DNA of 41,496 bases from an uncultured Bacilli bacterium (GTDB lineage: Bacteria; Bacillota_I; Bacilli_A; RF39; UBA660). Positions 7,166 through 41,258 of the stretch are shown in pieces. Made by a program: the position numbers and the translations under genes. The notes under the pieces are model-generated. The model was not told where the DNA came from. It saw only the letters and a list, made by a program, of their open reading frames with translations, and did no database searches. Each line of letters opens with the position of its first letter. The stretch's first letter is position 1. The stretch is from assembly GCA_944331835.1 (NCBI GenBank), contig CALVIU010000006.1:1-41496 (forward strand), in the 5' to 3' direction.

Positions 7166-7204
7166 ATAATACCTCACTTAACGCTTATATTACCACAAAT
7201 AAAG

Positions 7205-7235
7205 AAAAATAAAAAGAACAAAACAAATTGTTCTT
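7205..7235 (-). terminator. Rho-independent terminator of the GntR-ABC operon
   Basis: Inverted repeat AAGAACAA / TTGTTCTT (7214-7221 and 7228-7235) with a 6-nt loop. On the minus strand it is followed by TTTATTT. It directly follows the stop of the ABC permease gene, and the promoter of the TPR operon begins just beyond it. Confidence 0.6.
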
Positions 7236-7865
7236 CTAAAATTCTTTCTTCAAATATATTTTTTTAGATACAAAATAAGATATTACCAATAATATAACAG
7301 CCGCTAAAGGTATTAAAATATAATAATATTTATTAAAAATTTCAATAAAACCAGTAGCATTTTCTAAATCTATTCCTGTAAAAATAAATCCAAGCAATCC
7401 AGCAATAGCAAACACTCCTACAAATAATCCAATACGACCTTTTTCCACTCCAAATTTAAATATCAGAGGAAACATTATTGCTTCAAGTAACACGATAGAA
7501 AACACACAACCTAAAATCATTCCAAACATTTCAAAGTAATTTATATTTTGTTCAAAAAGTCCCATAATTCCTGTGATAACAACAGTTACCAAAAGAGCAA
7601 TTGCCCATAAAATTATACTAGCAACATACTTAGCCTTTACTATATTTTTTCTAGAAACCGGTAAGGATATAGCATATGCATCCCATTTGTTATATTCATC
7701 ATAACTAAATGTCGTTATAAAAACCATCATCGAAACAAACACTGGTACAATAACTATAATGTTATTTTCTTGGAAAGCCAATATCAAAAATACCACTAAA
7801 AATAATATTACTTGTCTTATATTACCTTTAATCATAAGTAAATCTTTTTTTACTAAACCTAACAT
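7236..7865 (-). CDS. ABC-2 type transporter permease
   Basis: 209-residue integral membrane protein with about six hydrophobic segments, the permease half of a small ABC-2 exporter. The segment DEYNKWDAYAISLPVSRKNIVKAKY (residues about 56-80) is the typical cytoplasmic coupling stretch of ABC-2 permeases in GntR/YtrA-linked modules. ATG 7865 follows GGGGGA at 6 nt and overlaps the end of the ATPase gene by 7 nt, so the subunits are coupled. The substrate is not deducible. Family precedent (YtrABCDEF, antibiotic-stress ABC modules of Bacillota) suggests export of, or protection from, cell-envelope compounds (inference). Confidence 0.85.
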   Translation of the reverse strand: MLGLVKKDLLMIKGNIRQVILFLVVFLILAFQENNIIVIVPVFVSMMVFITTFSYDEYNKWDAYAISLPVSRKNIVKAKYVASIILWAIALLVTVVITGIMGLFEQNINYFEMFGMILGCVFSIVLLEAIMFPLIFKFGVEKGRIGLFVGVFAIAGLLGFIFTGIDLENATGFIEIFNKYYYILIPLAAVILLVISYFVSKKIYLKKEF

Positions 7866-8725
7866 ATTTTATCCCCCTTTATCATTAATACCATTAAATC
7901 CTCCAATGTAATTTTATCAACAACCATATTTTTATACTTTTTACTTACTTTATTTCTATCGCTAACTAAAATTTCATAATTATATTTATTCTTTTTATAT
8001 GCCATATAATCACTTTTATCTATCTTGGCAAACTCATCCAAATTACATTTAAGTATTCCATAATTATCTAGTATTTCATCTCTAGTTTTATTTATCAAAA
8101 CTTTTCCCTTATCGATAAATACTATTTCATCTGCAATATGTTCTAAATCACTAGTTATATGTGTTGAAAATAAAATTGTATGTTCATCATCAGCAATAAA
8201 TTTTAAAAATATATCTAAAACTTCATTTCTAACCACCGGATCTAATCCACTCGTCGGTTCATCAAGTATTAATAATTTAGGATGATGAGCAAGAGCAGTA
8301 GCAATCTCTAACTTTTTACGCATTCCTTTTGATAATTTTTTAATAATACTAGTAACTGGTATATTAAATTCTTTTAGATAAGTATAATATAATTTACTAT
8401 CCCAAGACTTATATATACTTTTCATCACCGAATCAATGTCCTTAGCATTTAATACCTCCGGAAAAAAGGTATTATCTAAAACGACTCCAATATCCTCTTT
8501 TATAAGAGTTTCATAACTTTTTATATTTTTTCCAAAAATTTTTATTTCTCCTTTATTGATTCTTAAAATGTCCAAAATAGATTTAATTAATGTAGTTTTA
8601 CCAGCACCATTTTCTCCGATTAACCCAATAATTTCCCCACTAGGAATATCTAAATTTAATTCTCCCAATTGAAAATTATCATCATATCTTTTAACTAAAT
8701 TTTTAATTTCTATTGCTTTATTCAT
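7859..8725 (-). CDS. ABC transporter ATP-binding protein (YtrB-like)
   Basis: 288-residue ABC ATPase. Walker A GENGAGKT (37-44), a degenerate signature LSKGM (131-135) where LSGGQ is usual, Walker B LLILDE (151-156) and the D-loop/H-loop stretch are all present. The LSKGM signature is common in the YtrB/ABC-2 exporter group. About 90 C-terminal residues beyond the NBD carry the charged tail seen in this subfamily. Start ATG 8725 is chosen over 8740 because GGAG lies 9 nt upstream. The ATG lies inside the last codons of the GntR gene (8-nt overlap). It powers the permease encoded next and is controlled by the GntR protein encoded before it (inference from the operon). Confidence 0.88.
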   Translation of the reverse strand: MNKAIEIKNLVKRYDDNFQLGELNLDIPSGEIIGLIGENGAGKTTLIKSILDILRINKGEIKIFGKNIKSYETLIKEDIGVVLDNTFFPEVLNAKDIDSVMKSIYKSWDSKLYYTYLKEFNIPVTSIIKKLSKGMRKKLEIATALAHHPKLLILDEPTSGLDPVVRNEVLDIFLKFIADDEHTILFSTHITSDLEHIADEIVFIDKGKVLINKTRDEILDNYGILKCNLDEFAKIDKSDYMAYKKNKYNYEILVSDRNKVSKKYKNMVVDKITLEDLMVLMIKGDKIC

Positions 8726-27958: not shown

Positions 27959-28726
27959 ATGAAATATTTAAGTGTTGGAACTGACCAATTATTTGCTGAA
28001 CTTTATCAACCAATAAAAAATGGCAACCCCAAACCAACCGGAGGCTTATGGGCAACTGAATATGACCCAAAATATCCTAATTACAATGTTTGGGTAGAAT
28101 TCCTATCTATTCAGCCTCATATATTATTTTATAAAAGAACTAATGGCAATCCTTTTTTAACTCCAGCAAGCCTATTAACATTAAATGATGATACGAAAAT
28201 ATTTAAATTAGAAAACCAATATCAACTAGATTTCCTAAAAAAATATTATCCATCTGCTGATAACTGGATTGACTTTGAAAAATTAAGTCAAGATTATGAT
28301 TGTCTTTATATTGATATCATGCTACTTTATCGTGATATAACACCAGAAGAAAAATACAAAATCGCTGAATTTACTGTCAGTACTTTATTAATATTTAATC
28401 TTGACTGTATTAAACACTATCAAAAAGCAGAAGTAGATATAGAACCATTCGACTACGAATATGAACATGAATTCAGTAGATATTGTATCAATGTTGATAG
28501 CCAATTGCATGCTATATCTAAAAGTGATGATCAAATAACTGAACTAATAAATAGAATCAAAAAAGAAGAGTCAAAAACTCTTCCTAACATCGAACAATTA
28601 CTCCAAGAAAAGTATGGTGAAATACTAACAAATTTCATTGCTGAATTTAAACTCAAAAATGCTAGCACTGAACATCCTGAAACTTTAAAACAATTACTCA
28701 TTAGACATATATCTCGAAGTATTTAA
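27959..28726 (+). CDS. orphan protein of unknown function, possible ADP-ribosyltransferase-like fold
   Basis: 255 residues, soluble, no signal peptide. A block KPTGGLWATEYDP (25-37) followed by aromatic W45, and later WIDFEKLSQDYDCLYI (103-118), resembles a layout I have seen in phage and bacterial hypothetical proteins likened to ADP-ribosyltransferases. That resemblance is by memory only. The C-terminus (about 170-255) is acidic and helical. A near-consensus promoter and AGGGGGA 8 nt before ATG 27959 suggest good expression as a single gene. Its stop overlaps the convergent VTT-domain gene by 4 nt (TTAA). Confidence 0.65.
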   Translation: MKYLSVGTDQLFAELYQPIKNGNPKPTGGLWATEYDPKYPNYNVWVEFLSIQPHILFYKRTNGNPFLTPASLLTLNDDTKIFKLENQYQLDFLKKYYPSADNWIDFEKLSQDYDCLYIDIMLLYRDITPEEKYKIAEFTVSTLLIFNLDCIKHYQKAEVDIEPFDYEYEHEFSRYCINVDSQLHAISKSDDQITELINRIKKEESKTLPNIEQLLQEKYGEILTNFIAEFKLKNASTEHPETLKQLLIRHISRSI

Positions 28727-29307
28727 TTAATTTTAAATACTTTTTTTATTACAAAACTCATAAGATATGCAATAATCATCATAACAACAACTGTTATTAA
28801 ACTAGTAGGATTTTGAAAACTTTCTACTAAACTAGTACCAACAAATCCCCAGAAATAAACTAAAAATATCTTACTAATTAATATAGCTATAAAGAATTTT
28901 TTAAAATTCATATTTACTAAACCAGCAGCAATATTCATCATAAAAGCTGGAGTAAATGGAATAGATAAAATAACAGTTATCTTTGTTAATGATAAATTTT
29001 CAATATAATTCATACACTTTGTTAATAAATCAATATTCTTAATTTTTTTCACTACAAAGTTACGCAAAAACTTCTTTACTAAAAAATAAGAAATAAGACA
29101 CCCAATAATTGTACAAATCCAAGATATAATAAAACCTATTACATTACCAAAAGCAATAAAATTAATAGTAATAAAAACAAACAACGGAAGTGGGGGTATA
29201 ATTGATTCTAACACGATAAAAAGCGAACCAAGTATTGGTCCATAAACTCCCATTGAATCGATTGTATCCATAATAAGATTATAAAAATTACTAAATACTT
29301 CTCCCAT
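28723..29307 (-). CDS. VTT-domain (TVP38/DedA-like) membrane protein
   Basis: About 194 residues with five to six hydrophobic helices. The motif VLESIIPPLPLFVFITINFIAFG (about 29-51) is the first re-entrant VTT segment of the TVP38/TMEM64/DedA superfamily. The second, ILSIPFTPAFMMNIAAGLVNM, follows the central charged loop. These proteins act as lipid scramblases or transporters, for example recycling undecaprenyl carriers. Start ATG 29307 is preferred over the in-frame GTG 29316, with GTGG 5 nt upstream. The natural substrate is not determined. Confidence 0.85.
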   Translation of the reverse strand: MGEVFSNFYNLIMDTIDSMGVYGPILGSLFIVLESIIPPLPLFVFITINFIAFGNVIGFIISWICTIIGCLISYFLVKKFLRNFVVKKIKNIDLLTKCMNYIENLSLTKITVILSIPFTPAFMMNIAAGLVNMNFKKFFIAILISKIFLVYFWGFVGTSLVESFQNPTSLITVVVMMIIAYLMSFVIKKVFKIN

Positions 29308-29367
29308 AAAAACCACTATTGTTATTATAGTACAAAATATCCAAAAATACTATTACAATTATGTAAT

Positions 29368-29622
29368 TTATCGAATTACTTGAGTTACATCATAGCCAAG
29401 ATATTCAAGCATTGCAACTACTCTTTTACTAAGAGTACCCTTACTACAAACAATAAAATATTTTTGATTCCTATCAAGTATAGTCTTATAATTTAAAAGT
29501 AATTTATCAGCATACATATTTTTACTATACGGTGTAGGATTTTTTTTATAATCTATAGGATGCTGAACATCAATTAAAATTCCCATACTAGGATTATATT
29601 CACTTATCTTTATCGTTTTCAT
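29368..29622 (-). CDS. small rhodanese-like domain protein
   Basis: About 84 residues from ATG 29622. The compact single rhodanese domain runs MKTIKISEY, GILIDVQHPIDYKKN and the active loop YFIVCSKGTLSKRV, with the catalytic cysteine followed by a C-x6-R-like loop near residue 60. Typical stand-alone rhodaneses are about 100 residues and start with this layout; the active loop is a little unusual (CSKGTLSKR). Neither ATG 29622 nor the in-frame GTG 29631 has a convincing ribosome site, so the start is uncertain. A TATAAT at 29633-29638 is very close. Confidence 0.75.
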   Translation of the reverse strand: MKTIKISEYNPSMGILIDVQHPIDYKKNPTPYSKNMYADKLLLNYKTILDRNQKYFIVCSKGTLSKRVVAMLEYLGYDVTQVIR

Positions 29623-29654
29623 ACTTCTCACATTATAATTTATGTTGAATCAAT

Positions 29655-29688
29655 AAAAAAGAAGATGATAAATAACTATTCATCATCT
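29655..29688 (-). terminator. intrinsic terminator of the T4SS operon
   Basis: Arms of about 7 bp (29663-29669 with 29682-29688, core GATGAT/ATCATC) overlap the coding end of the coupling-protein gene. On the minus strand they are followed by six T (29655-29660). The loop is 12 nt. Confidence 0.5.
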
Positions 29689-31937
29689 CCGAAAAAGTCA
29701 TCAAAAAATTCATCATCACTAATAATATTATCCCCAATAATTTTACTATCAGAATCGACACTAATTTTTGGTTTTTCATTTTTTTCTAATTGCTCTACTT
29801 TTGGTTGACTAACATCAGGAACTTTAGCATCAATTGCCTTTTTAAAATCATCTAATGATTCAACTTCACTGTTAGTATTAATTGAATTATTAGTTGTAAT
29901 ATTTTTCATAAATGGACTACTATCAAAAAATCTATTTGTTGTAGTTTCTTTCTTCTTTGGCAATTCTACATCTTCACCAATATTTAAAAAACTATTAGCA
30001 TTTTTCTTTTTTTCTGCTTCCTGACGGTCTAACTCTTTAAATTTTTCATCTAAATCTTTTAACATACTATCGATATCTAAAGAGTTAAAATTATTTTTAG
30101 GCATTGGACTTTGCCCAAATCCAGAATTCATTCCAGCTCCCATTCCTTGGAAACCTGGAGTTGATGGTCTAAATGGATTTGGTGAACCAAAACCGCTATC
30201 TTTTATATTAGCCATGTGCTTACTTTTTTCTTCAGTAACAAACTTTTTCAAATCAAATATTTCAACTTCTTGTTTAATTCTAGATGGATATGGTTCTTCT
30301 TTTCTTTCAATTCCCCATTCCATTTTAAAGTCTGGTTCTAATTTTGTTCTAAATGGATCTGTTCTAAGACGTTTAATTATTGCTTCAAACAGCTTCATTT
30401 TTTGTAAATCAGTAACAGTTATAAGAGGTCTAGTTGCATTCTTATCTTTATCATCAGTTACTTTTACTTCCCCACACATCTTCGAAATTTCTTCCAAAGC
30501 CTTCATTTCAGTACTAATTAAATAAACTAAATTACCACAATTACCTTTAATAATTTCTGCAACATTATCGCCATAGACATCATTAAGTTGGGCAAAGTTT
30601 TGAATAATAAATGTAAATCTTATATCCCGACTTCTTGCTGCTGATACCATTGCATCCACATCTTTAAGCGGAGGCATATTTGCAAATTCATCTAAGATGA
30701 AATTTGTTCTATAAGGAAGTTTTCCTCCATTTTCTTGGGCAACATCGATTAATGTTTCATAACATTGTTTAATAAATATTGTCATCAAACTATGATAAGT
30801 TTTCTTTTCATCATGTATAATCATAAATACTGCAGTCTTACCATTACCAATGTCTCGCATATTAAAGTCACTATAAGAAAGCATTTCACTTAAAGCTTCT
30901 CCAGTTGAAAAGTTTCTTATCTTTTGTCTAAATGTTGCAAGTAATCCACCTTTAGTATCATTCGGAGCATTAATAGTACTTGTTGCAAAGATATAAGGTG
31001 TTGATTTTTCCCCTTTAAGTCCAAAATACTCTTTAATATAATTGCTAGTTGCATATCTTTCTTCTCCAACAGCACTCATATAATTGATACTATTTAAATT
31101 AACTTCTCTTTCCTTAGCATCTTCAAATAAACCTAAAGCCAGTCCTGAAAAATAGTCAGCAGCTGATTTTTCCCAGAAATCTGATTCTGATTTATTACTT
31201 GGATCATACAAAATATTTAAAGCAACGTCGTTTAATAATTCGATAGCTTTATCTTGATTACCACCAGTATAATATTTATATGGAAGGGTCAAAGGATTCC
31301 ATGAATTTCCCCTTTGAGGTTCACGGAAATTTAAAACTATAATTCTATATCCTCTTTCCTTCAAATAAGATGCACTATACTTATATATTTCACCTTTAGG
31401 GTCAGTAATAATCATACTTTCGCCCTTTTTAGCAAGTAAATTAACCATTGGTTTAACTATTGTTTGAGTTTTACCACTACCAGTAGAACCAATTACTAAG
31501 TTATGATATTCGCCATTATCTACCCAAATTTCTTTACCATTGTTAATTAAAGGAATTCCCGCAGCATCCAAAGTTTCACTCAAAGGATTAACTTTAACAA
31601 CATTTTCTTCATTCTTAATGTCTTTTTCATTTGCCCATTTAGAATATCCATCGCTAGATTTTCCCTTAAGAATTAGACCAACACCATGACTTCCCTTATC
31701 TTTCTTAAATATATAAGAAGACACACTAGAAAATATCGCTACTAATGACCCAATAAATAACAATAACGTAATTGGCAAATAATAACTAGTAAATGCTTCA
31801 AAAGGAAGAAGACCATAAAATTTGCCTTCTTGAGCTAAGGAAGACACATTTAAAACTGCTATAGCGCAAAGATATAACAATAATACACAATAAATACAAA
31901 ATAGTAAAAAATCTTTTGGTTCTACTTTAAATTTCAT
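29676..31937 (-). CDS. VirD4/TraG-type T4SS coupling protein
   Basis: 753 residues from ATG 31937, chosen because GGAAAGGAAG lies 6 nt upstream. Two N-terminal transmembrane helices (about 11-33 and 52-75) anchor it. Walker A is GSTGSGKT (150-157), the strand IITDPKGE at 176-183, and Walker B FILDEFANMPP (413-423). SAARSRDIRFTFIIQNFAQ (432-450) is the TraG C-terminal ATPase signature. A long disordered tail (from about 560) holds Gly/Pro/Asn linkers and ends in an acidic Asp/Glu/Phe cluster. Coupling proteins bring substrate to the T4SS channel. Last gene of the operon. Confidence 0.95.
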   Translation of the reverse strand: MKFKVEPKDFLLFCIYCVLLLYLCAIAVLNVSSLAQEGKFYGLLPFEAFTSYYLPITLLLFIGSLVAIFSSVSSYIFKKDKGSHGVGLILKGKSSDGYSKWANEKDIKNEENVVKVNPLSETLDAAGIPLINNGKEIWVDNGEYHNLVIGSTGSGKTQTIVKPMVNLLAKKGESMIITDPKGEIYKYSASYLKERGYRIIVLNFREPQRGNSWNPLTLPYKYYTGGNQDKAIELLNDVALNILYDPSNKSESDFWEKSAADYFSGLALGLFEDAKEREVNLNSINYMSAVGEERYATSNYIKEYFGLKGEKSTPYIFATSTINAPNDTKGGLLATFRQKIRNFSTGEALSEMLSYSDFNMRDIGNGKTAVFMIIHDEKKTYHSLMTIFIKQCYETLIDVAQENGGKLPYRTNFILDEFANMPPLKDVDAMVSAARSRDIRFTFIIQNFAQLNDVYGDNVAEIIKGNCGNLVYLISTEMKALEEISKMCGEVKVTDDKDKNATRPLITVTDLQKMKLFEAIIKRLRTDPFRTKLEPDFKMEWGIERKEEPYPSRIKQEVEIFDLKKFVTEEKSKHMANIKDSGFGSPNPFRPSTPGFQGMGAGMNSGFGQSPMPKNNFNSLDIDSMLKDLDEKFKELDRQEAEKKKNANSFLNIGEDVELPKKKETTTNRFFDSSPFMKNITTNNSINTNSEVESLDDFKKAIDAKVPDVSQPKVEQLEKNEKPKISVDSDSKIIGDNIISDDEFFDDFFGDDE

Positions 31938-31991
31938 GAGTATCTTCCTTTCCACCAATATTATATAACAAAATTGTCATTTATAAAACCA

Positions 31992-32813
31992 TTAATCACT
32001 AAAACTTCTTATATAATTTCCATCTACATAATCATACAAATTATTTTGGGTTTCCCCAACATTAGAAAAATAACCTTCTTGTAAAATAAAAGAATAAACA
32101 CTATTATTGTCATATCTTAATATGTAATTTAATTTATATACAGGATAAGACATAATTTCTCTATATTGGACTTCATCATCAATTACAACTTGTATTTCAT
32201 TATTTAAAACAACATAACACAAATTAAAATAATATTGTTCTTCTTCCAAAGAATCTAAATTAGAAACATTAACTATTTTATCTACAATACCATTAGAATC
32301 TAAATCAATATTAACCACTTCATTAGTTGATAAAGTGCTACTATTAAATCCATGCCCCAGTATAGTTGTTATTTCAGATATTTCCACTCCAGTTACATTT
32401 GTTACCGCATATGAAGGAATAACTACATTAAAATCATTTGAATACGCAATTAAATCACCATAATATTCTACATATGAATTATTATCATCAAATAAATTCC
32501 ATATGGTTCCATATTTCAAATTATAATTTCCATAATATTGATGATTTACATATACAACAAATTCATTATCTTCTATTTCATCTATATCTAATGTTCGCCA
32601 TCTACCATCAACATATCCCCAATTACTTATATTATCAATTACCAACATATCATAATCTATTACTACTGGTTCAGTTGGTGTTTCTCCTTCATTACCATTA
32701 TTTCCTGGATTTTCTTCTTCTCCTAAATCTCTATTTACATAATAATATGCATAAAAGACTACTGAAATAGCTACTAGAATAATTATTATAACAATTGAAA
32801 CCTTTTTATTCAT
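31992..32813 (-). CDS. membrane-anchored extracellular protein of the T4SS locus, function unknown
   Basis: About 273 residues. One N-terminal helix (VSIVIIIILVAISVVFYAYYY) is followed by a Gly/Asn/Glu/Pro linker (about 30-46) and an extracellular Tyr/Asn/Asp-rich domain. A Ca-loop-like stretch IDLDSNGIVDKI sits near residue 185. ATG 32813 has AAGGAGG 6 nt upstream and overlaps the end of the wall-hydrolase gene by 8 nt, arguing for coupling. It stands where a VirB8/TcpC-like component might be expected, but no NTF2-like motif is recognised. It may be a surface part of the secretion apparatus. Confidence 0.7.
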   Translation of the reverse strand: MNKKVSIVIIIILVAISVVFYAYYYVNRDLGEEENPGNNGNEGETPTEPVVIDYDMLVIDNISNWGYVDGRWRTLDIDEIEDNEFVVYVNHQYYGNYNLKYGTIWNLFDDNNSYVEYYGDLIAYSNDFNVVIPSYAVTNVTGVEISEITTILGHGFNSSTLSTNEVVNIDLDSNGIVDKIVNVSNLDSLEEEQYYFNLCYVVLNNEIQVVIDDEVQYREIMSYPVYKLNYILRYDNNSVYSFILQEGYFSNVGETQNNLYDYVDGNYIRSFSD

Positions 32814-34416
32814 TAGAATCCTCCTTATCATAAGAATACACAACTACTTGATCAATTTCACTAATAAGCACCGAAGTAACTTTACCACCAGAAGGATCCT
32901 TTGTTATAAAATAATTTCCATCTGTACTTGTATAAACTACATAGTGACCTCTTGGATGAGCAGAATTAACATAATGTAACAAAACAAACGTACTATTTGG
33001 ATCTTGCGATTCAACTAATTCTCTAGTTGCAGATGATGAACTCGGATTATAAGTACCAACTAACCTTACTGATGGAGCAATTTCTTGAATACCACTACAT
33101 CCCCAATAAATAGCTCCAGAATCAGTGAAACAAGAACCATTAGCATTTAAGGTATCAATTAAAGCTTTAGCATCAAAATTATCGACAACAACATCAGTAC
33201 CAGAACAAGAAATACCAATAGCTATTGATGTTACAGCACAACCAGAATCAGCCATCGTAAGTGAAGAATTTCCTAATCTCGTACTACCCCACTTAGAATC
33301 TCCTTGAGCATAAATCGTACAATCCGCTGAATAAACTTCACAATTATCCGGATCAATTCCAAACACTGTTTTACGCATATCAGACATAATAGACACTTGA
33401 TATTTAGCATAAGCAGCTTGATCTTCTTCTGTTGTAGCAACACAGCCTTCTCCACCACTAGTATCACAGTAATTTCCGCTATTACAAATTCTTTCTACTT
33501 CATTTGCTCTTGATGTTGTCATAAATTCTTTTATGTAAGGAAAATAATAACATCCACCAACAGAGGAACTACCAGGATTATACCAATATGAACCAATATA
33601 AGCATAACGGGACATCATTGCATCAACACTTTCATATTGACTAACATTTTCAACATAACCAAGTACTCCATCATCAAATGATTCATAACTTATACAAGCA
33701 TTATATCCGCCTGTATTTGTGCATCCCATTCCCCAATAATTATTTTTGCTAGAACCTGGTGAAAAACCTTCTAATATTGCTCTTATTACTACCAACTCAG
33801 GATTTACACCATTATTTGTAGCTATAGTATATATTCTATCTGCATTATCAGCAAAAGCTCGACGATCAGCATCATTACTATAAGCAAAATAATCTTGCAC
33901 CTTAGAAACAAATTCACTTCTTGATAAAGAGGTTGTACTTATAGATATTTCAGAGCAACTAGCACCATAAGAACTACTTAAAGAATTTTCTGACTGAGCT
34001 CCTCCACCCAGTATTATAATAAGAATAAATATTAATAATACAACTCCCAAAATTGCTAAAATCCATGGATTAGCTACAATAAATGCCAAAACTTTCATAG
34101 CTACCTTACCAGCCACTTTTTTAGCGGCAGTTCCTGCAGCTTTTGTAGCATTACGAGCAGTTTCTCTAACTGCTGCACCTGCAGCAGCCTTAGCCTGAGA
34201 AGCAACTTGCTCTGTTTCACTATTTTCTAGTTTCTCATTTGTTTCAGTTGTATTTTCAACATTTTCTACTTCATTAATTTCCTCATTTTGTGTTTCTTCT
34301 AATTCATCTTCTTCATTATTTTGCGCCATAGAAAAAGCACCTAATCTTCTTTGTTGTCGTTGATTAGGATCATAAAGTAATTTATTTTCGTTATTTACTC
34401 CTCTTTTTCTATTCAA
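32806..34416 (-). CDS. membrane-anchored VirB1-like wall hydrolase (glucosaminidase-like plus C39-like domain)
   Basis: 536 residues. Residues 1-70 are acidic/polar, 72-108 Ala/Lys-rich, and the transmembrane helix is at about 116-137. Residues 190-300 are glucosaminidase-like (lysozyme fold): E216 in AILEGFSP, then SKNNYWGMGC, a close match to the family SxxNNxFG motif. Residues 368-530 form a C39-like papain-fold peptidase with C393 in DSGCAVTS, H491 in RGHYVVY and D507 in TKDPSGG. Cutting glycan and peptide together would open the wall for the secretion channel. Start is TTG 34416 (AGGTGG 5 nt before it), an unusual start codon; the gap to the VirB4 gene is 14 nt. Many cysteines suggest disulfides. 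Confidence 0.87.
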   Translation of the reverse strand: MNRKRGVNNENKLLYDPNQRQQRRLGAFSMAQNNEEDELEETQNEEINEVENVENTTETNEKLENSETEQVASQAKAAAGAAVRETARNATKAAGTAAKKVAGKVAMKVLAFIVANPWILAILGVVLLIFILIIILGGGAQSENSLSSSYGASCSEISISTTSLSRSEFVSKVQDYFAYSNDADRRAFADNADRIYTIATNNGVNPELVVIRAILEGFSPGSSKNNYWGMGCTNTGGYNACISYESFDDGVLGYVENVSQYESVDAMMSRYAYIGSYWYNPGSSSVGGCYYFPYIKEFMTTSRANEVERICNSGNYCDTSGGEGCVATTEEDQAAYAKYQVSIMSDMRKTVFGIDPDNCEVYSADCTIYAQGDSKWGSTRLGNSSLTMADSGCAVTSIAIGISCSGTDVVVDNFDAKALIDTLNANGSCFTDSGAIYWGCSGIQEIAPSVRLVGTYNPSSSSATRELVESQDPNSTFVLLHYVNSAHPRGHYVVYTSTDGNYFITKDPSGGKVTSVLISEIDQVVVYSYDKEDSNE

Positions 34417-34430
34417 TTAAACCACCTTAA

Positions 34431-36218
34431 CTAAAATCCCCCACCTGATCCAAACGAATCAAGTTCTTCTTGGGTAATAACAATTTGAATACGCATTCTC
34501 TTATTACCACAAACAAATAATGCATCACCTTGATTATAATATTTAATTGATTCTTTTTCAGCCTCATTTAAATCAATTAATTTTGATAAATCTTCGACAG
34601 CTTGTTTACGAAGCCCCATAACCAAATAATAAGAAGCATTATCAAAGATTGCTTTACCATGTGTAATAATATTTGGGGCAGTAAAGTCTGTTGGTTGTTG
34701 GGTAATAATAATTGTACCAGTATTGTATTTCCTACTACGTCTTTGAATTTGTGCTAAAAATTCAGCACCTAATTCATTATGTCCCGCAAGTAATACGTGT
34801 GCTTCATCAACCATCATAACGGTATTGACATCTTTATCCAAACATAAGCCCCATGCATATTTCAAAATATTAAAGAATAATGCATTTTTAATATTTTCAT
34901 CACTATTCATTAATTCTTTTATATTAAATACAATAAAATCGCTTTCAAATTGTAATGTTGTATGTCCTGTAAAATAATATCTAAGTTCTTTTACTAAAGG
35001 TCTTATCTTAAGTTCAAGCCGTTCCATTACATCCCGTTCATGTGTTGCATCAGTCATTGACAAAAGTCTACCTTTAATAGTTGCATAAACATCATCAAAT
35101 GTCGGATAATCAGCACTCGTTAACTTAGTAAAATCAGTATCGTAATCTATTTTATATCTTTTATAAGTATCTTGTAATACTTCACTAAACATTGTAAGTA
35201 CGTCTTCTTCAATACTTGGAGAATAATACTTCATAAAAGCTTTAACTTGTTGTAAAGTTCTAGTCAATACTGTATATCCTAAGCCTTGAGCAATTTCTTC
35301 TTCATCAGCATCAATTACTATTTCAAGTGGATTAATCATTCCGAAATCTCCACCTTTACCCAAGTCTAGAAAATCTCCCCCTAATGAATAAGTCATTTCT
35401 TCAAGTTCGCCTTCAGGATCGACACACACAATTTTACAACCATTTCTAATGTGTGAACGAAGTAACACCTTAGCAGCAGTTGATTTACCAGAACCTGACA
35501 TACCAAGCAAAATTAAATTAGCATTATTTCTATTATTTTCCTTTTTAATTTGATATAAAAATTGATTGAATAATATAACCCCACCAGATATATCTACTCC
35601 AAGAAGCGTCGCCGCTCCAGGATCTTTAATACTATCAAAAACAAATGGATACATAGCTGCAATAGTAACTGAAGGTATTGGAGTTCCAATTCTTTGTTCA
35701 ATATCTTGCGGTGGGAATATTGGCAAAATTGACTTCAATGCTTTTTCTTGTTCAAACATCAAAGATACTGCTCGCATTCCAAGAGCATCTAAATAACTTC
35801 TTACTTGAATCTTTCTAAGTTCTAATTCTTCTTTGTTATTTGCCGTAATCATCAAATGCATTTGAAAATCAAATATTCTTGCTTGAGTAGCTGCAAGCAT
35901 TTGAATAAATTGTTCTAAAGATTCATAATCTTGTCTAATTCTTTCTTGCATTGTTTGATCTTTTTCGCTTTGATATCGCACCTTTAAATCAGCTATTTCT
36001 TTGTTAAGCATTTTTTGTAAAACTGAAAACTCAATAGGTATATGCTTAATCGCAATTTTTACCCCATTAATATTAGTCATATCTGACAAAAATCCCGGAG
36101 TTATATTTTTGGGAAAAGAAATAACTGTCATTATAGTAGCATATTTTCCCCCAATAACGAATTCAGTTGGTTTAAACTCCATCCCTTTTGGAGCTACTTC
36201 ACTTTTTAATTTAGACAT
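34431..36218 (-). CDS. VirB4/TraE-type T4SS ATPase, large C-terminal part
   Basis: 595 residues. Walker A GMSGSGKST (239-247), the strand VCVDPEGE (264-271), Walker B VMMVDEAHVLL (467-477), then RRSRKYNTGTIIITQQPTDF (493-512) with the conserved QQ. This is the motor of the secretion channel. Residues 1-225 correspond to the second half of the VirB4 N-terminal domain (GGKYATIMTVISFPKNITPGFLSDM). The start follows the stop of the first VirB4 gene by one base (TAA, T, ATG), with CGGTGA a few nt upstream, so the two are translationally coupled halves of a normal VirB4 of about 780 residues. No sign of recent frameshifting. Confidence 0.93.
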   Translation of the reverse strand: MSKLKSEVAPKGMEFKPTEFVIGGKYATIMTVISFPKNITPGFLSDMTNINGVKIAIKHIPIEFSVLQKMLNKEIADLKVRYQSEKDQTMQERIRQDYESLEQFIQMLAATQARIFDFQMHLMITANNKEELELRKIQVRSYLDALGMRAVSLMFEQEKALKSILPIFPPQDIEQRIGTPIPSVTIAAMYPFVFDSIKDPGAATLLGVDISGGVILFNQFLYQIKKENNRNNANLILLGMSGSGKSTAAKVLLRSHIRNGCKIVCVDPEGELEEMTYSLGGDFLDLGKGGDFGMINPLEIVIDADEEEIAQGLGYTVLTRTLQQVKAFMKYYSPSIEEDVLTMFSEVLQDTYKRYKIDYDTDFTKLTSADYPTFDDVYATIKGRLLSMTDATHERDVMERLELKIRPLVKELRYYFTGHTTLQFESDFIVFNIKELMNSDENIKNALFFNILKYAWGLCLDKDVNTVMMVDEAHVLLAGHNELGAEFLAQIQRRSRKYNTGTIIITQQPTDFTAPNIITHGKAIFDNASYYLVMGLRKQAVEDLSKLIDLNEAEKESIKYYNQGDALFVCGNKRMRIQIVITQEELDSFGSGGGF

Positions 36219-36219
36219 A

Positions 36220-36774
36220 TTACATCACCGCCCCAAAATTAGTTTGTTCTCCCCCATTTAAGAAATTATCTAAAAGCATTCTTAAATCACTATTAGAAGC
36301 TTGTTGTGATTGCAAACCAGCAGTTGCTAGTCCACTTATCAAATTATGTAATTTCTTTTGAACAAGTTCCATTCTCTTTTCCTTAAACAAAATATAATAT
36401 TCTGTATCAACAACGTTATACTCAACACTTGTAAATAAATTTGCTTTATTTATATCTTGCATTATAAGTTTTTTAATAGCATTATTTTGAGCATTATTAT
36501 ACATTAATTGCAATTGAGAAACATAAACATCTATATCAACAGGTCTATCCGCAATTAATAACCAAAATTCAAAATCAATACTATTATAGAAGTTTCTTAA
36601 ATTGTAAATTGTATTATTTTGACTACCAACATCCATAATAAATATATTTTTAGGCATTATTTTAACACCAGTTACATAAGTTCCATCATCAAGTTGTATC
36701 ATCCCATTCATTATTTGTTTAATAGGAAGCCAATCTTCAGCATAACTTACATTATTGTTTATCTTCTGAGTCAT
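36220..36774 (-). CDS. VirB4/TraE N-terminal part encoded as a separate gene
   Basis: 184 residues. It opens with VSYAEDWLPIKQIMNGMIQLDDGTYVTGVKIMPKN, which is the canonical VirB4/TraE N-terminus (AEDWLPI then a beta hairpin). It then has helices equivalent to the family's first subdomain, ending at a Gln/Ser-rich linker. No Walker motif, as expected for this half. Its end and the next start are one base apart. It should dock onto the large subunit to rebuild VirB4. ATG 36774 lies inside the PrgI gene (23-nt overlap), which makes another coupled start. Confidence 0.87.
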   Translation of the reverse strand: MTQKINNNVSYAEDWLPIKQIMNGMIQLDDGTYVTGVKIMPKNIFIMDVGSQNNTIYNLRNFYNSIDFEFWLLIADRPVDIDVYVSQLQLMYNNAQNNAIKKLIMQDINKANLFTSVEYNVVDTEYYILFKEKRMELVQKKLHNLISGLATAGLQSQQASNSDLRMLLDNFLNGGEQTNFGAVM

Positions 36775-37072
36775 ATTTCACACACCAACCTCTCCAATAA
36801 TATCTTCTAGTATTAAAGATAAAACTGACAACATTTATTATAAATTGCAATACATTATGATAATAAAGCACCGGAGTAACTAGAAAGCCAGTAACTAAAG
36901 CCGGAAGTAATATTATTATCATTTGAACCGCACTAGCATTTCTAACTAACATTAACAAAAGTAATGTCAAACCACAACCAGAACCAAACAATATCAAATC
37001 AACTGGAGTAAAAAAGCCAAGTATTAATTGTGATTTTTTTGAATTTGCTGGTATTAAAAAATTGTTATTCAT
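36752..37072 (-). CDS. PrgI family T4SS inner-membrane protein
   Basis: 106 residues, two transmembrane helices (about 24-42 and 47-70), the standard PrgI/TcpE-like layout. A short N-terminus FLIPANSKK and the conserved C-terminal RRYYWRGW (89-96) are the family marks. PrgI-type proteins sit next to VirB4 in Gram-positive T4SS loci and are thought to form part of the channel (VirB3-like). GGAT lies about 8 nt before ATG 37072. The end overlaps VirB4-N by 23 nt in another frame. Confidence 0.9.
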   Translation of the reverse strand: MNNNFLIPANSKKSQLILGFFTPVDLILFGSGCGLTLLLLMLVRNASAVQMIIILLPALVTGFLVTPVLYYHNVLQFIINVVSFIFNTRRYYWRGWCVKYDSEDKQ

Positions 37073-37089
37073 TCCCTTTTATCCTTTCT

Positions 37090-39195
37090 TTATTTTTTAT
37101 TTTCATCAGTATTCTTTTGTTTCATAGCACTTATATTTACTTCATTACTTGCAGTATGCAATTTAATATTATCTCCCATTTTAGAAACTACCGATTTAGT
37201 TCCGTCAGCTGCATCGTAAAAGACAGATTCAGAAATATCCTTATTCATAGCAAAATCAGATCCTACAATACCAGCATCTCTTAAAGCTTGTAATGAAGAA
37301 TTATTCATTATAGCACCACGATATTCTGTAGCTTTAACTCTTAATTGACCTAATGCAATTTGATCATCTTGACTTAATCTATTCCAATTAGCTTGCGAAG
37401 AATACAATTTATTATGCAAAGATTTTTGAACATCTTTAATAGCATCTTTATAAGCTTTTTCTGCACCAGCAACATTTACCCCGCTTAATCTAGCTTGATC
37501 TAGCCTTTGCTTTGCAGCAGAAAAAGTTGATAAATTAGCTCCCGCCAAACTTGTTTTACCTTTATTAAGATTTTTTAAAAGAGTACTTTCAAATTCATTA
37601 TTAAATGCATCTTCGGCACCAGTAATTTCTGCCATTGCCGCATTTTCAGCACGTAAAGCATCAATGTTACCAATTCCTACAAATCTACCTGCACTGCCTA
37701 GTAAATCCGCTCCATGACCTAAACCAGCGCCTATAATTCCACCAACACCTGGTATTTTCTTTCTATGTGCAGCTTTATAATTTTCACGCTTAGTTCTAGC
37801 TTCAGCAGCTCCTTTAGCAGCAGTGCTAGCAGCACCTCTCATATCTTTAAAGTTTTTTGCACCTCTACCAGCAAAGCCGCCTCGTACAAGTCCAGAACCA
37901 GCTCCGCCAATAGTTGATTTTGCTGCACCTAAAGTTCCACCAATTAAAGCTCCAGCCTTTCCTCTAAAGCCACTAGCATTTTTTACATTATGAGCAGTTC
38001 CTTTGATTCCACCAACTAAATTTCTAACTCCAGCAGTTGCTAGACCACCAACAGCAGCTCCAGCAACTAAGCCACCACCCATGGCAAGTTTATCCATAAG
38101 GCCAAGTTTCATACCACCAGTATCTAGTTTTAACAATTTTGAAAGCAAATCAGGAGCTTGTCTTATAAACGTAACTACTCCCATAATCAATAAAGCTAGA
38201 ACAATTAATTCTTGAGTGAAAGATAAATCACTTAAACCTGGAATACCATTAAAGTTTTTTACAATTGTAGTTATTAAAAATACTCCTAAATTCATTATAC
38301 CAATTCGAATAAAGACTTCAAAAAATATACTAATAACCTGTTTTGTCCAATTTGAAAATACATCTTTCATATTACCACCAGGTAATATTCTACATATAAC
38401 AGGGATTGGAGCTATTATTTGATAAAAAGCTAATTTTATTACCCTAAGTGCCATATCAAAGCAAAAATTTAATAAAACATATACTATAAATAATCCAGCA
38501 AAAGTAGAAATTATAAACATGTAATTGATTTGTCCTGCTTCTACGGCTTCTCCAAATTCACTAAAATTAGAAAACGAATCTTCTCTTAAAACGCCAGCTC
38601 TAATTTCACTTAATGGCAATCCATTTTGAACAAACAAAGCACCATTGCCCAAAATTTCATCAGCGCAACTTCCTCCATCTCCTACAGTTAATACTGTACC
38701 AGTTCCATTCACTTCTGGATTGCCACACCAATCTTCATTTTCATGGAAAAATGCCATAAATGTATAATAAGCCATCGTTCTACCAGCATCAGCATCATAC
38801 ACATCTGTATTCGTTGCATAATCATTACCAAGCACCAATCTAGGAATCGTATCGTTATTCAAAATAGAATTTTGAATATTAAAAGCCACACTAAAAACCA
38901 TAGGTAGCAACACAATTATTACCAAAGAAATAACAACATTTTTTATAAGATTTGGAAATGAATTTTCTCCCTTAGCAAAATCATCAGGATTAACAATTGC
39001 TCTTAATAGTGAATACGCTAAAACAAAAAGCATAAAAACCCCTAATATAATATAGATTCTACTAACAATATCATTATAAGTATCTTGACTAAAAATGTTT
39101 ATGCCTGCCAAAAAATCAAATATATCATATAAATAATCTATTAAATTATAAATAGCACCATCAAGCATTAAAAGTAAATTGTAAAGATTAGCCAC
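37090..39195 (-). CDS. VirB6/TrbL-like polytopic T4SS protein with long alanine/glycine-rich tail
   Basis: 701 residues. Transmembrane segments lie in about 45-65, 85-105, 225-250, 252-275, 285-312 and 328-345, typical for VirB6/TrbL-like cores. The segment TKQVISIFFEVFIRIGIMNLG (284-304) is well shaped for this. An extracellular loop of about 110 residues with cysteines (157, 177) lies between helices two and three. Residues about 370-470 are Gly/Ala-rich and basic, perhaps membrane-interacting; 480-701 are helical, Ala-rich and soluble. The start is GTG 39195 (AGGTGA 6 nt before it). Role: central inner-membrane channel. The tail may reach into the cytoplasm. Confidence 0.88.
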   Translation of the reverse strand: MANLYNLLLMLDGAIYNLIDYLYDIFDFLAGINIFSQDTYNDIVSRIYIILGVFMLFVLAYSLLRAIVNPDDFAKGENSFPNLIKNVVISLVIIVLLPMVFSVAFNIQNSILNNDTIPRLVLGNDYATNTDVYDADAGRTMAYYTFMAFFHENEDWCGNPEVNGTGTVLTVGDGGSCADEILGNGALFVQNGLPLSEIRAGVLREDSFSNFSEFGEAVEAGQINYMFIISTFAGLFIVYVLLNFCFDMALRVIKLAFYQIIAPIPVICRILPGGNMKDVFSNWTKQVISIFFEVFIRIGIMNLGVFLITTIVKNFNGIPGLSDLSFTQELIVLALLIMGVVTFIRQAPDLLSKLLKLDTGGMKLGLMDKLAMGGGLVAGAAVGGLATAGVRNLVGGIKGTAHNVKNASGFRGKAGALIGGTLGAAKSTIGGAGSGLVRGGFAGRGAKNFKDMRGAASTAAKGAAEARTKRENYKAAHRKKIPGVGGIIGAGLGHGADLLGSAGRFVGIGNIDALRAENAAMAEITGAEDAFNNEFESTLLKNLNKGKTSLAGANLSTFSAAKQRLDQARLSGVNVAGAEKAYKDAIKDVQKSLHNKLYSSQANWNRLSQDDQIALGQLRVKATEYRGAIMNNSSLQALRDAGIVGSDFAMNKDISESVFYDAADGTKSVVSKMGDNIKLHTASNEVNISAMKQKNTDENKK

Positions 39196-39205
39196 TTATA
39201 ATCAC

Positions 39206-39685
39206 CTACCCAATCCCACAAGTGCCATATGCACCAAATAAACGCATTACAAAATCAACTACAATTGGCAAAAAGAATAAAATAACTACAAATATAAATC
39301 TTTTTGCAGTAGTCATAGTAGCCTTCTTAATAGCATCTTTATCATTTGAAACTAACGCCTTAATAAAATCAACTGTACTTAAAATTAATAATGCTGCTAT
39401 TGCCACATATTTCATTATATTTAAAATCCATTGCATCCAATATGCCGGATATTGGCTTTTAGTTGGGTCGCCAAAAATAGCCTTACATAGTTCATCGTTA
39501 TTTTGTACACCTTCAGAATCGGCATCTGCAAAACCATCTCCACGTTCTCCGTCAAAGCCATCGCCGCGTCCACTCGAAACAGCAATTTCTTCTACTAAAG
39601 CACTAGCATTTGCTACATTTTGAAAACAAAAAAAGGATAGAACGACCATACAACATAGAATTAAACCTTTATTCACAACTGTCAT
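39206..39685 (-). CDS. VirB2-like small two-helix T4SS protein with signal peptide
   Basis: 159 residues. Signal peptide with VVLSFFCFQNVANA-S near 27-28. An acidic Gly-rich linker with a doubled GDGF motif (about 41-52) is followed by transmembrane helices at about 86-106 and 130-148. Cysteines at 67 and 156 flank the helices and may pair. Two helices with a cytoplasmic basic loop (SNDKDAIKKATMTTAKR) are the VirB2/TrbC pilin-like layout seen at the head of Gram-positive T4SS operons. GGAAGTGA lies 4 nt before ATG 39685. First gene of the operon; tRNA-Trp ends 73 nt upstream, on the same strand. Confidence 0.8.
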   Translation of the reverse strand: MTVVNKGLILCCMVVLSFFCFQNVANASALVEEIAVSSGRGDGFDGERGDGFADADSEGVQNNDELCKAIFGDPTKSQYPAYWMQWILNIMKYVAIAALLILSTVDFIKALVSNDKDAIKKATMTTAKRFIFVVILFFLPIVVDFVMRLFGAYGTCGIG

Positions 39686-39758: not shown

Positions 39759-39832
39759 TGGCAGGGGCGGAGAGAATCGAACTCCCATCAAAAGTTTTGG
39801 AGACTCCTATGCTACCATTATACCACGCCCCT
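39759..39832 (-). tRNA. trnW: tRNA-Trp (anticodon CCA)
   Basis: 74-nt tRNA: acceptor AGGGGCG / CGCCCCT, anticodon loop CTCCAAA with CCA at 34-36, T arm GGGAG TTCGATT CTCTC, discriminator G and an encoded 3' CCA. The anticodon stem GGAGT/ACTTT contains two G-U pairs and the D stem has one mismatch, but the fold is complete. An extended -10 TGGTATAAT (TATAAT at 39853-39858) lies upstream. UGG decoding agrees with UGA as a stop. No second copy of its 3' end was seen in the window. Confidence 0.93.
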
Positions 39833-39903: not shown

Positions 39904-41258
39904 CAAAAGAAGTTACAGTTCAGTCAAGAAATAAAAAATGTTGATAAATAACCAGTTATCAAAAGGTTAAGATGAGGGTAAAAGTCAAGACTTGTATTCT
40001 CATTTTTTATATGAGAAAATTAAGAAAATAAAGGAGAAATTAAAATGGCATCAAATTATAATAATTATGCATATAAAGATTATGAGAAAGTATGTAATAA
40101 ATTAGATGCTGTTTTAGATGAGTTAAAATCTGAAAGAAAAGAACATAAAAATGATGTTAAAAAATTTGAAAATACAATAGATAAATTAACAAAAGCTTTG
40201 GAACAATCTCAAAAAAGAGTTGAGGAATTAACTAATGAATTATTAAAAATAAAGTCTAAAAATAAACGTGATAGTTCTAATTCAAGTAAGCCATCTAGCA
40301 CCAATGGTTTTAAAAAGCAATAACTAATCGAAGAGAAAAATCCGATAAAAAACAAGGAGGTCAATTTTTTCACAAGCCACACTCTTTGAAAAATAAATTA
40401 GATCAATTTATAAAATCAAAAAATGTTGAAGAAGAAATTATTGAAATCATATTATATAAATCATGACGAATCTGGTGTAAAAGTTGCTGGGAATAGCGAA
40501 AATATTTTGTGTGCTTGTAATGATAAGTATACAAGATTTTGGATACATGAGCATAAATCACAAGAAGCACTTCAAGAAATAGATTTTTTACCAAAATATA
40601 AGGGAATAATAGTTAAAGATGGAACAGAGTTATATAATTCCTTTGGATTATTACTATCTCAATGCTTATCCTATATTTTAAGATATTTAAAACCATATTA
40701 TGAGGAAATAAAACACCAAGCACCAAAGAAAATGAAAGAATTTTTGAGTAAGTATAATAATATTAGAAATGAAAAAATAGAAAATGATGAAGATTCATTT
40801 GCTAATGAAGAATTAAATAACATATATATTGAATATGATAATATCTTAGATGAATGGGAAGAAGAACTAAGAAAAGATACAGATAATTACTTATTTAATG
40901 ATGAATATTGTCTATTTAGAAGAATGAAATATGATAACAAAAAAATGGATAAGGATTATCGTGGAGATAGAGACGAAGTTTTATACTTTCTAAAAGATTT
41001 CAGAGTACCATCAACAAATAATCAGGCAGAGACAGATCAAAGACTTATAAAGATTAAACAAAAAAATGAAAGGTTTAGGAGTGAAAATGGTGCTAATAAT
41101 TATGCAATTATTAGAAGTTGTATCAACACATATAAAAAGAATGGTATTAATGTATTTGATGCATTAATATCATCCTTTGATAATAGAACTATACTTGTCT
41201 AAGTGAATACTATTTTCGCTTATTTTAGTATGCCTTGACTGAACTGTAACCAAAAGAA
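39904..41258 (+). mobile_element. IS66-family insertion sequence relic with perfect TIRs and 8-bp target duplication
   Basis: Terminal inverted repeats GTTACAGTTCAGTCAAG (39912-39928) and its exact complement (41234-41250) enclose 1339 bp. Flanking direct repeats CAAAAGAA (39904-39911 and 41251-41258) are the 8-bp target duplication typical of IS66. The only gene inside is a broken transposase. The ends are intact while the coding part is ruined, so the copy is non-autonomous but could be moved by a related transposase. Confidence 0.9.
40045..41202 (+). pseudogene. IS66-type transposase, frameshifted and internally deleted
   Basis: Fragment 1 (40045-40323): coiled-coil N-terminus followed by RDSSNSSKPSSTNGFKK, the IS66 N-terminal signature. 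A frame change near 40310 at an A-run continues as TNRREKSDKKQGGQFFHKPHSLKN, where related transposases read GGQ-x-GHK. Fragment 2 (40423-41202): catalytic region with DESGVKV (first D), IIVKDGTELYN (second D) and PSTNNQAETDQR (E). The segment between (zinc-finger/HTH, over 100 residues in normal members) is missing. AAAGGAGA precedes ATG 40045. No functional transposase can be made without correction. Confidence 0.88.

Follow-up and report, generated by a model that had tools for sequence, protein, structure and literature searches.

The 41,496-nucleotide contig CALVIU010000006.1 of an uncultured Bacilli bacterium (order RF39, family UBA660; assembly GCA_944331835.1), analysed over its whole length and hereafter called the window, carries at positions 29676-39685 of the minus strand eight tightly packed genes of a type IV secretion system (T4SS) operon of the MPF-FATA type. 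The comparison of this operon with its counterparts in related genomes indicates that the block is almost certainly domesticated and non-mobile, and we consider it probable, with less assurance, that it serves as a contact-dependent translocation device which became fixed in an order of small-genome gut Bacilli. The genome to which the window belongs comprises 1.25 Mb in 58 contigs (91% complete, 28% G+C), the window being the whole of one of them. The genes, all on the minus strand, are given here in their order along the operon:

39206..39685, minus strand: VirB2-like pilin-type protein, 159 residues, with a signal peptide and a C-terminal T4SS-pilin-like domain of two transmembrane (TM) segments
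37090..39195, minus strand: VirB6-like polytopic membrane protein, 701 residues (NCBIfam MMCAP2_0566, 2.1e-15)
36752..37072, minus strand: PrgI/TcpE/VirB3-like protein, 106 residues (TcpE, 2.5e-4; Mbov_0397 positions 2-96)
36220..36774, minus strand: N-terminal part of VirB4 (VirB4N), a gene of its own in a TrsD-like position, 184 residues (Mbov_0397 positions 97-276, 8.8e-13)
34431..36218, minus strand: ATPase part of VirB4 (VirB4C), 595 residues (Mbov_0397 positions 294-891, 2.9e-102; CD1110, 1.1e-48)
32806..34416, minus strand: membrane-anchored wall hydrolase (VirB1-like), 536 residues, first gene of the cassette described below (weak CD1108 match)
31992..32843, minus strand: X283, with a TM segment at the N-terminus and a beta-rich domain outside the cell; the second cassette gene
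29676..31958, minus strand: VirD4 coupling ATPase of the CD1115 family, 760 residues (NF045973, 290 bits against a cut-off of 250)
29679..29717, minus strand: conserved acidic-aromatic C-terminal tail of VirD4, DDEFFDDFFGDDE

A preliminary description, made from the sequence alone, had named a Gram-positive T4SS operon with a split VirB4 in this stretch, and all the genes that it named are confirmed, on the minus strand and in the order given. The splitting of VirB4 is real, as PrgI, VirB4N and VirB4C, which are separate genes, fall on successive stretches of one and the same Mbov_0397 model, and because of this splitting VirB4C scores under the whole-model cut-off. Its Walker A (SGSGKST) and Walker B (DEAH) motifs are intact and conserved, and it matches the solved VirB4 structure PDB 4ag5 (5.6e-63), while VirD4 matches Pfam T4SS-DNA_transf (2.6e-54) and the VirB6-like protein is found in all 20 mapped relatives, its C-terminal part differing among them. 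The PrgI-type assignment is weak when taken alone (0.0097 against the Mbov_0397 model), and support for the 159-residue VirB2-like protein is likewise weak (Mbov_0396 TM, 7.5e-4), homologues being present at the same position in relatives. Of the components by which the MPF-FATA type is recognised, a FATA-type VirB4, a VirD4-type coupling protein, VirB3/PrgI and VirB6 are present. A tRNA-Lys called by ARAGORN inside prgI (36913-36993) has no Rfam support and was taken as a false positive.

The preliminary description had also proposed that the block is a domesticated device and not a mobile integrative and conjugative element (ICE), and its distribution in relatives, surveyed in metagenome-assembled and hence incomplete genomes, agrees with this. 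Of 98 genomes of the family, nearly all from different genera, 82 have VirB4 split in this way, and in a sample of the order, in which practically every genome comes from one family, 259 of 288 genomes, representing 92 of 102 genera, possess orthologues (E<=1e-140). The operon thus recurs across the order far beyond chance and is core, not patchy; in a sample of the class outside the order, there are only eight distant VirB4 matches, with 29-34% identity. VirB4N directly adjoins VirB4C in 102/102 mapped loci, and the gene order of the operon is conserved among relatives, the exceptions being cases in which its second half is absent from the contig stretch seen. VirB4C distances follow those of rpoB (r=0.78, Mantel p=1e-4; 13 of 25 splits in common), from which the inheritance of VirB4 relative to rpoB appears to be largely vertical. 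In close relatives the ratio of nonsynonymous to synonymous substitutions (dN/dS) is around 0.03-0.05 for VirB4C and 0.09-0.13 for VirD4, and both genes are under purifying selection; the VirD4 values leave out the pair L075/L079, which concerned a mis-assigned fragment.

A distinct scenario holds for relaxases, none of which was found in 111 core loci with a profile built from relaxases of the sister VirB4 clade, as against 14 of 18 control loci from mobile elements, four of the 14 being seeds of the profile itself. A scan with PF13814 is uninformative, because the control loci were silent as well. In the window's own genome the searches with PF03432, PF01076, PF02486 and PF03389 were all negative (MobL was not searched genome-wide), and no integrase was recognised among the open reading frames (ORFs) of the window; the absence of both genes in the preliminary description is therefore borne out. 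PF03432 relaxases do occur in 22 of the 98 family genomes, and 8 of the 12 unsplit ICE-type VirB4 genes of this family have one at a distance of 2-6 kb; only one of the 82 core VirB4 genes has such a relaxase on the same contig, at a distance of 71 kb. The VirB4 tree places elements of other Bacilli families as the sister group of the core clade (node support 100%), and in four of four loci examined in this sister clade a MobL relaxase stands next or close to VirD4, so that the core system most likely arose from a conjugative element through relaxase loss. In the single-contig genome G160 (locus L198, ~6915-8243) a Mob_Pre (MOBV) relaxase gene is found ~12 kb upstream from the core VirB4 gene; it is encoded on the other strand and seems to belong to a separate element.

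The hydrolase and X genes, which sit between the near-invariant VirB4 and VirD4, behave differently from the rest of the operon and occur in three coupled, unrelated types, named here after their X proteins (X283, c12 and c17). Among near relatives, whose VirB4C and VirD4 are 88-97% and 73-96% identical, hydrolase and X switch type together; between loci L074 and L075, for example, identity amounts to 94% in VirB4C and 89% in VirD4, but to 26% in the hydrolase and 22% in X. In pairs of different type a DNA similarity of 83-88% ends ~65-190 nt past the VirB4C stop and returns from ~37 nt before to 21 nt after the VirD4 start, some pairs keeping a short similar patch of 80-100 nt within the hydrolase, whereas the window and L067, which share a type, align along the full length. 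On the VirB4C tree of 48 loci the type changes 15 times by parsimony, and the best match shares the X type for 45/48 hydrolases (shuffled mean 16) and for 30/48 VirB4C proteins. The enzymatic domains go along with the partner: hydrolases accompanying c17 contain M23 (17/17) and phage-tail lysozyme domains (16/17), those with c12 NlpC/P60 (13/26), CHAP (10/26) or M23 (4/26), and those with X283 C39 (9/12). The window hydrolase gave no informative Pfam match of its own and its closest homologue, in L067, has a weak Peptidase_C39_2 match; judged from the alignment and the homologues, the protein probably combines a glycosidase-like with a C39-like region.

As to the partners, the structure model of X283 is confident and beta-rich (pLDDT 86) and matches no known fold, c12 is a lipoprotein that has a TM segment at its C-terminus and an LppM-like fold (E 4e-7), and c17 is TM-anchored. 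Comparison of X283 with the other X types by hhalign gave no homology besides the TM helix. An identification of X as an obvious VirB8 was considered and dropped, the fold searches of X283 and c12 having returned no NTF2 match. We read the hydrolase as a wall-cutting head and X as its cognate inhibitor or positioning partner. LppM-like lipoproteins of the c12 family are also encoded away from the T4SS and in T4SS-free genomes (G057, G066, G051, G038, G082, G059 and G014), and these copies are possibly orphan partners.

Upstream, most relatives with enough contig have genes for a TadA-like ATPase, two TadB/C-like proteins and Flp-like, TadE-like and TadZ-like proteins preceding the operon. The TadA-like protein matches CpaF (2e-18), the TadA family (3e-30) and VirB11 (5e-34), CpaB-like genes are present in the block (5e-8), and the TadB/C-like proteins match those at the TadB/C position of the Exiguobacterium plasmid pEYLC1.2 (3e-7 and 4e-8); TadZ, TadE and the remaining components are assigned from position and marginal matches, and profile searches against the PDB for TadZ and TadB gave no match. 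Where TadA and VirB4C share a contig, the distance between them is 8.6-13.1 kb in 31 of 32 cases, and across genomes the presence of one is associated with that of the other (74/8/9/7, p=0.0025). In the window genome the Tad block is on another contig, C18, with two VirB2-like genes at its end, which suggests that the ancestral cluster was broken between VirB2 copies; ancestrally, the operon is the continuation of a Tad-pilus cluster. It is likely that the T4SS acts jointly with the Tad pilus.

Behind TadZ there are 1-6 VirB2-like genes (7 at most in one array), about half of which encode more than 250 residues, and in relatives many copies bear large ectodomains. Two VirB2-like proteins of ~620 residues (L139:1795-3666 and L131:2310-4154) carry M15 carboxypeptidase ectodomains (~1e-24) on a two-TM pilin domain, one of them with a weak amidase match too (1.4e-4). 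On contig C18 of the window genome, the fusion of a TadE-like pseudopilin to a Peptidase_M15 region (L163:14605-16149, 4e-10) may represent a pilin-like subunit that bears a peptidoglycan peptidase. The CpaB/TadA genes of the same contig are closely preceded by a gene matching Pfam DUF5411 (L163:9098-9508, 1e-55), which from this position may be a Tad-cluster component in these bacteria.

VirD4 ends, after a variable low-complexity region, in an acidic stretch with the motif [FY][FY]DDFF, which is present in 52 of 52 core VirD4 proteins, and in none of five ICE VirD4 proteins of the same family; none of the remaining ORFs in the fetched loci has it. The coupling proteins TraD and DotL use acidic tails to recruit substrates or adaptors (PMC7434980), and the tail is suggestive, although only suggestive, of protein export through the coupling protein.

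The surroundings of the operon are also conserved. In relatives, genes for a rhodanese, a DedA-like protein and an RmuC-like protein often come after VirD4, so that the survey of synteny proposed in the preliminary description shows both gene order and flanks to be conserved in the mapped relatives. The features of the window next to the operon are these:

29368..29631, minus strand: rhodanese-like gene, conserved flank downstream of VirD4 (Pfam 4e-4; in 13 of 20 mapped relatives)
28723..29316, minus strand: DedA-like membrane protein, conserved flank, assigned by sequence (beside the operon in 8 of 20 mapped relatives)
39759..39832, minus strand: tRNA-Trp(CCA), upstream of the operon

It is in this genus alone that the tRNA-Trp occurs near the operon: among 20 relatives it is absent from this position, except in the same-genus genome G045, which has it further off. 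Direct repeats of its 3' end, which had been named beforehand as the sign of an integrated ICE, were searched for and no att-like repeat was found, the sole match being 12 nt long and overlapping the tRNA by 4 nt. At the contig start (51-2487, plus strand) there are genes for a HerA/VirD4-like ATPase (DUF87, TraG-D_C) and a cysteine-rich partner that fits no known family; near the contig end, 40423-41202 encodes the C-terminal part of an IS66-type transposase, adjoining a small coiled-coil ORF (40045-40323).

Domestication is well supported by core distribution, fixed flanks, the vertical signal, purifying selection and relaxase-free core loci, and the mechanism beyond it is one that we infer. 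The link to a pilus, the interchangeable wall-cutting part and the loss of the relaxase together make the block look like a lasting device for contact-dependent injection or feeding, and not like a mobile element. A conjugative element would have lost its relaxase; Tad and VirB2-type pilins, some with peptidoglycan-cutting ectodomains in relatives, would make contact with a neighbouring cell, and the membrane-anchored hydrolase, restrained or positioned by its cognate X partner, would cut the wall locally. VirB6, PrgI and VirB4 would form the channel, and the C-terminal tail of VirD4 would recruit a conserved adaptor or substrate, the outcome being that substrates, most likely proteins, are translocated on contact into an adjacent bacterium that these auxotrophs depend on or compete with. 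That proteins are indeed passed to other bacteria is a serious possibility to which we give slightly less than an even chance, and a more speculative and rather unlikely extension is that of a chromosomal attack or feeding machine of the whole order, directed against other bacteria, whose peptidoglycan-cutting head and immunity-like partner are swapped to match targets or to evade resistance.

Several observations weigh against this reading. The core VirB4 clade receives an ultrafast bootstrap of only 87%, and three supported VirB4 splits disagree with rpoB, implying some exchange or tree error. Around 10% of the genomes have no T4SS, among them the well-assembled G036 and G094, from which it follows that the system is not universally required. 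No substrate or effector was identified, and a conserved VirD4 fits DNA as well as protein substrates. In addition, no VirB8-like (NTF2-fold) protein was identified, and the word complete, used for the operon in the preliminary description, is consequently not established.

This last point bears on the possibility that hydrolase and X are an ordinary, fast-diverging assembly module of the VirB1/VirB8 type, neither effector and immunity protein nor tailored to a target, which would be compatible with a domesticated translocation device and which we regard as a sizeable but still doubtful alternative. In ICEs of the Tn916 type the wall hydrolase is followed by a VirB8-like protein, the hydrolases studied here are anchored by a TM segment at the N-terminus, as are the VirB1-like proteins of ICEs, and c17 may hold NTF2-like domains, as judged by eye only. 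However, the X families are non-homologous in profile comparison, neither the fold of X283 nor the LppM resemblance of c12 points to NTF2, and the replacement is allelic and sharply bounded while the flanking machine genes stay similar at the DNA level.

Alternatively, the operon might still encode a conjugation apparatus which the host maintains or which mobilizable elements with MOBP or MOBV relaxases of their own use in trans; many of the PF03432 matches mentioned above are strong and away from any T4SS, Mob_Pre is found in 8 of 14 genomes, and the G160 gene lies 12 kb from the operon. Yet most T4SS-bearing genomes, that of the window among them, have none of these relaxases while their T4SS is conserved under purifying selection, the relaxases adjoin co-resident ICE-type VirB4 genes instead, and a benefit to a parasite would not preserve a host gene across a whole order, all of which renders this explanation improbable. 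We give similarly little credence to a relaxase-free movement of DNA, as uptake for nucleotides or as release, in the manner of archaeal Ced or Helicobacter ComB. RF39 bacteria have been described as devoid of de novo nucleic-acid synthesis (PMC13155120), and DNA import by Ced uses type IV pili and VirB4-type ATPases (PMC12102498); nevertheless, the CD1115-type VirD4 and its conserved tail speak for recruitment of a cytoplasmic substrate, that is for export, and the essential role in Saccharibacteria is something other than natural transformation (PMC12857230). Finally, a genome in 58 contigs, 91% complete, with a tRNA-Trp at one edge of the block, could conceivably harbour a decaying or recently inserted ICE, with its relaxase and integrase located beyond the window or missing from the assembly. 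Neither a linked relaxase, nor an integrase with att repeats, nor a patchy distribution was found, and order-wide orthology, conserved flanks, low dN/dS and the relaxase-free loci of relatives make this explanation extremely improbable.

For a domesticated translocation device, the nearest functional parallel would be the T4SS of Patescibacteria (Southlakia and Saccharibacteria), a likeness of features and not a matter of clade membership. This system derives from MPF-FATA, is chromosomal and mostly relaxase-free, and is required by Southlakia for growth as an epibiont (PMC12102498, PMC12857230). Shared with it are the separate TrsD-like gene for the VirB4 N-terminus, PrgI, VirB6, VirB2-like arrays, hydrolases downstream of VirB4, a type IV pilus required alongside and reduced, host-dependent genomes; contrary to it, the present system belongs to Bacilli, has VirD4 in the operon with a conserved tail, and is associated with a Tad-type linked pilus and a swappable hydrolase-X cassette. 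The MobL-type elements of the sister VirB4 clade in other Bacilli families (L218-L221) have VirB6-PrgI-VirB4-VirD4 in common with it, and in some cases a hydrolase, but differ by the MobL relaxase beside VirD4 and by their rarity (the eight matches in the class sample). Two loci on Firmicutes/Mycoplasmatota plasmids, L216 (NZ_CP082335.1) and L217 (CP074574.1), combine a split-VirB4 T4SS with Tad genes, an annotated relaxase being present in only one of them in the stretch seen. Like the RF39 systems, pEYLC1.2 and the Mycoplasmatota zrk4 plasmid have split VirB4, VirD4, a VirB6-like protein, CpaB/SAF, CpaF and a T2SS-F-like protein in one region, with the difference that they are plasmid-borne and their VirB4 is 27-29% identical. 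In pEYLC1.2 a MobP3 relaxase, VirD4, a pilin, TrbL, the split VirB4 and Tad genes stand together, and the zrk4 plasmid has a similar set with no annotated relaxase in the half examined; elements like pEYLC1.2 are a plausible ancestor type.

Two further systems offer partial comparisons. The Kil system of Myxococcus (PMC12075869) also joins a Tad-type pilus to a secretion-machine base, places variable domains on pilin-like subunits and acts by contact, but uses a needleless type III secretion system (T3SS*) in place of a T4SS and belongs to a diderm predator; its adaptable tips may be compared in function with the M15-decorated pilins, and no homology is claimed. The 89K T4SS of Streptococcus suis is likewise a Gram-positive T4SS proposed to export a protein, SspA-1 (PMC12857230), but it lies on a pathogenicity island of epidemic strains, and PMC12857230 describes for it neither a Tad block nor a swappable cassette.

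RF39 bacteria, common in human and animal guts, are uncultured and lack fatty-acid and several amino-acid pathways (PMC6784871), and we found no relevant paper on their T4SS in the open-access literature. According to a 2025 review it is surprising that nearly all known functions of Gram-positive T4SSs are in DNA transfer, and the existence of dedicated Gram-positive effector translocators is a long-standing question (PMC12857230). An order-wide, largely vertical and relaxase-less T4SS of Bacilli is a strong candidate for such an effector translocator, and the VirD4 tail, the hydrolase-X pairs and the linked Tad pilus provide concrete handles on it. The parallel with Patescibacteria suggests that host-dependent, genome-reduced bacteria of two distant phyla have settled on the same tool kit and, if the attack or feeding machine is real, RF39 bacteria would be the Firmicutes counterpart of the predatory or epibiotic Patescibacteria.

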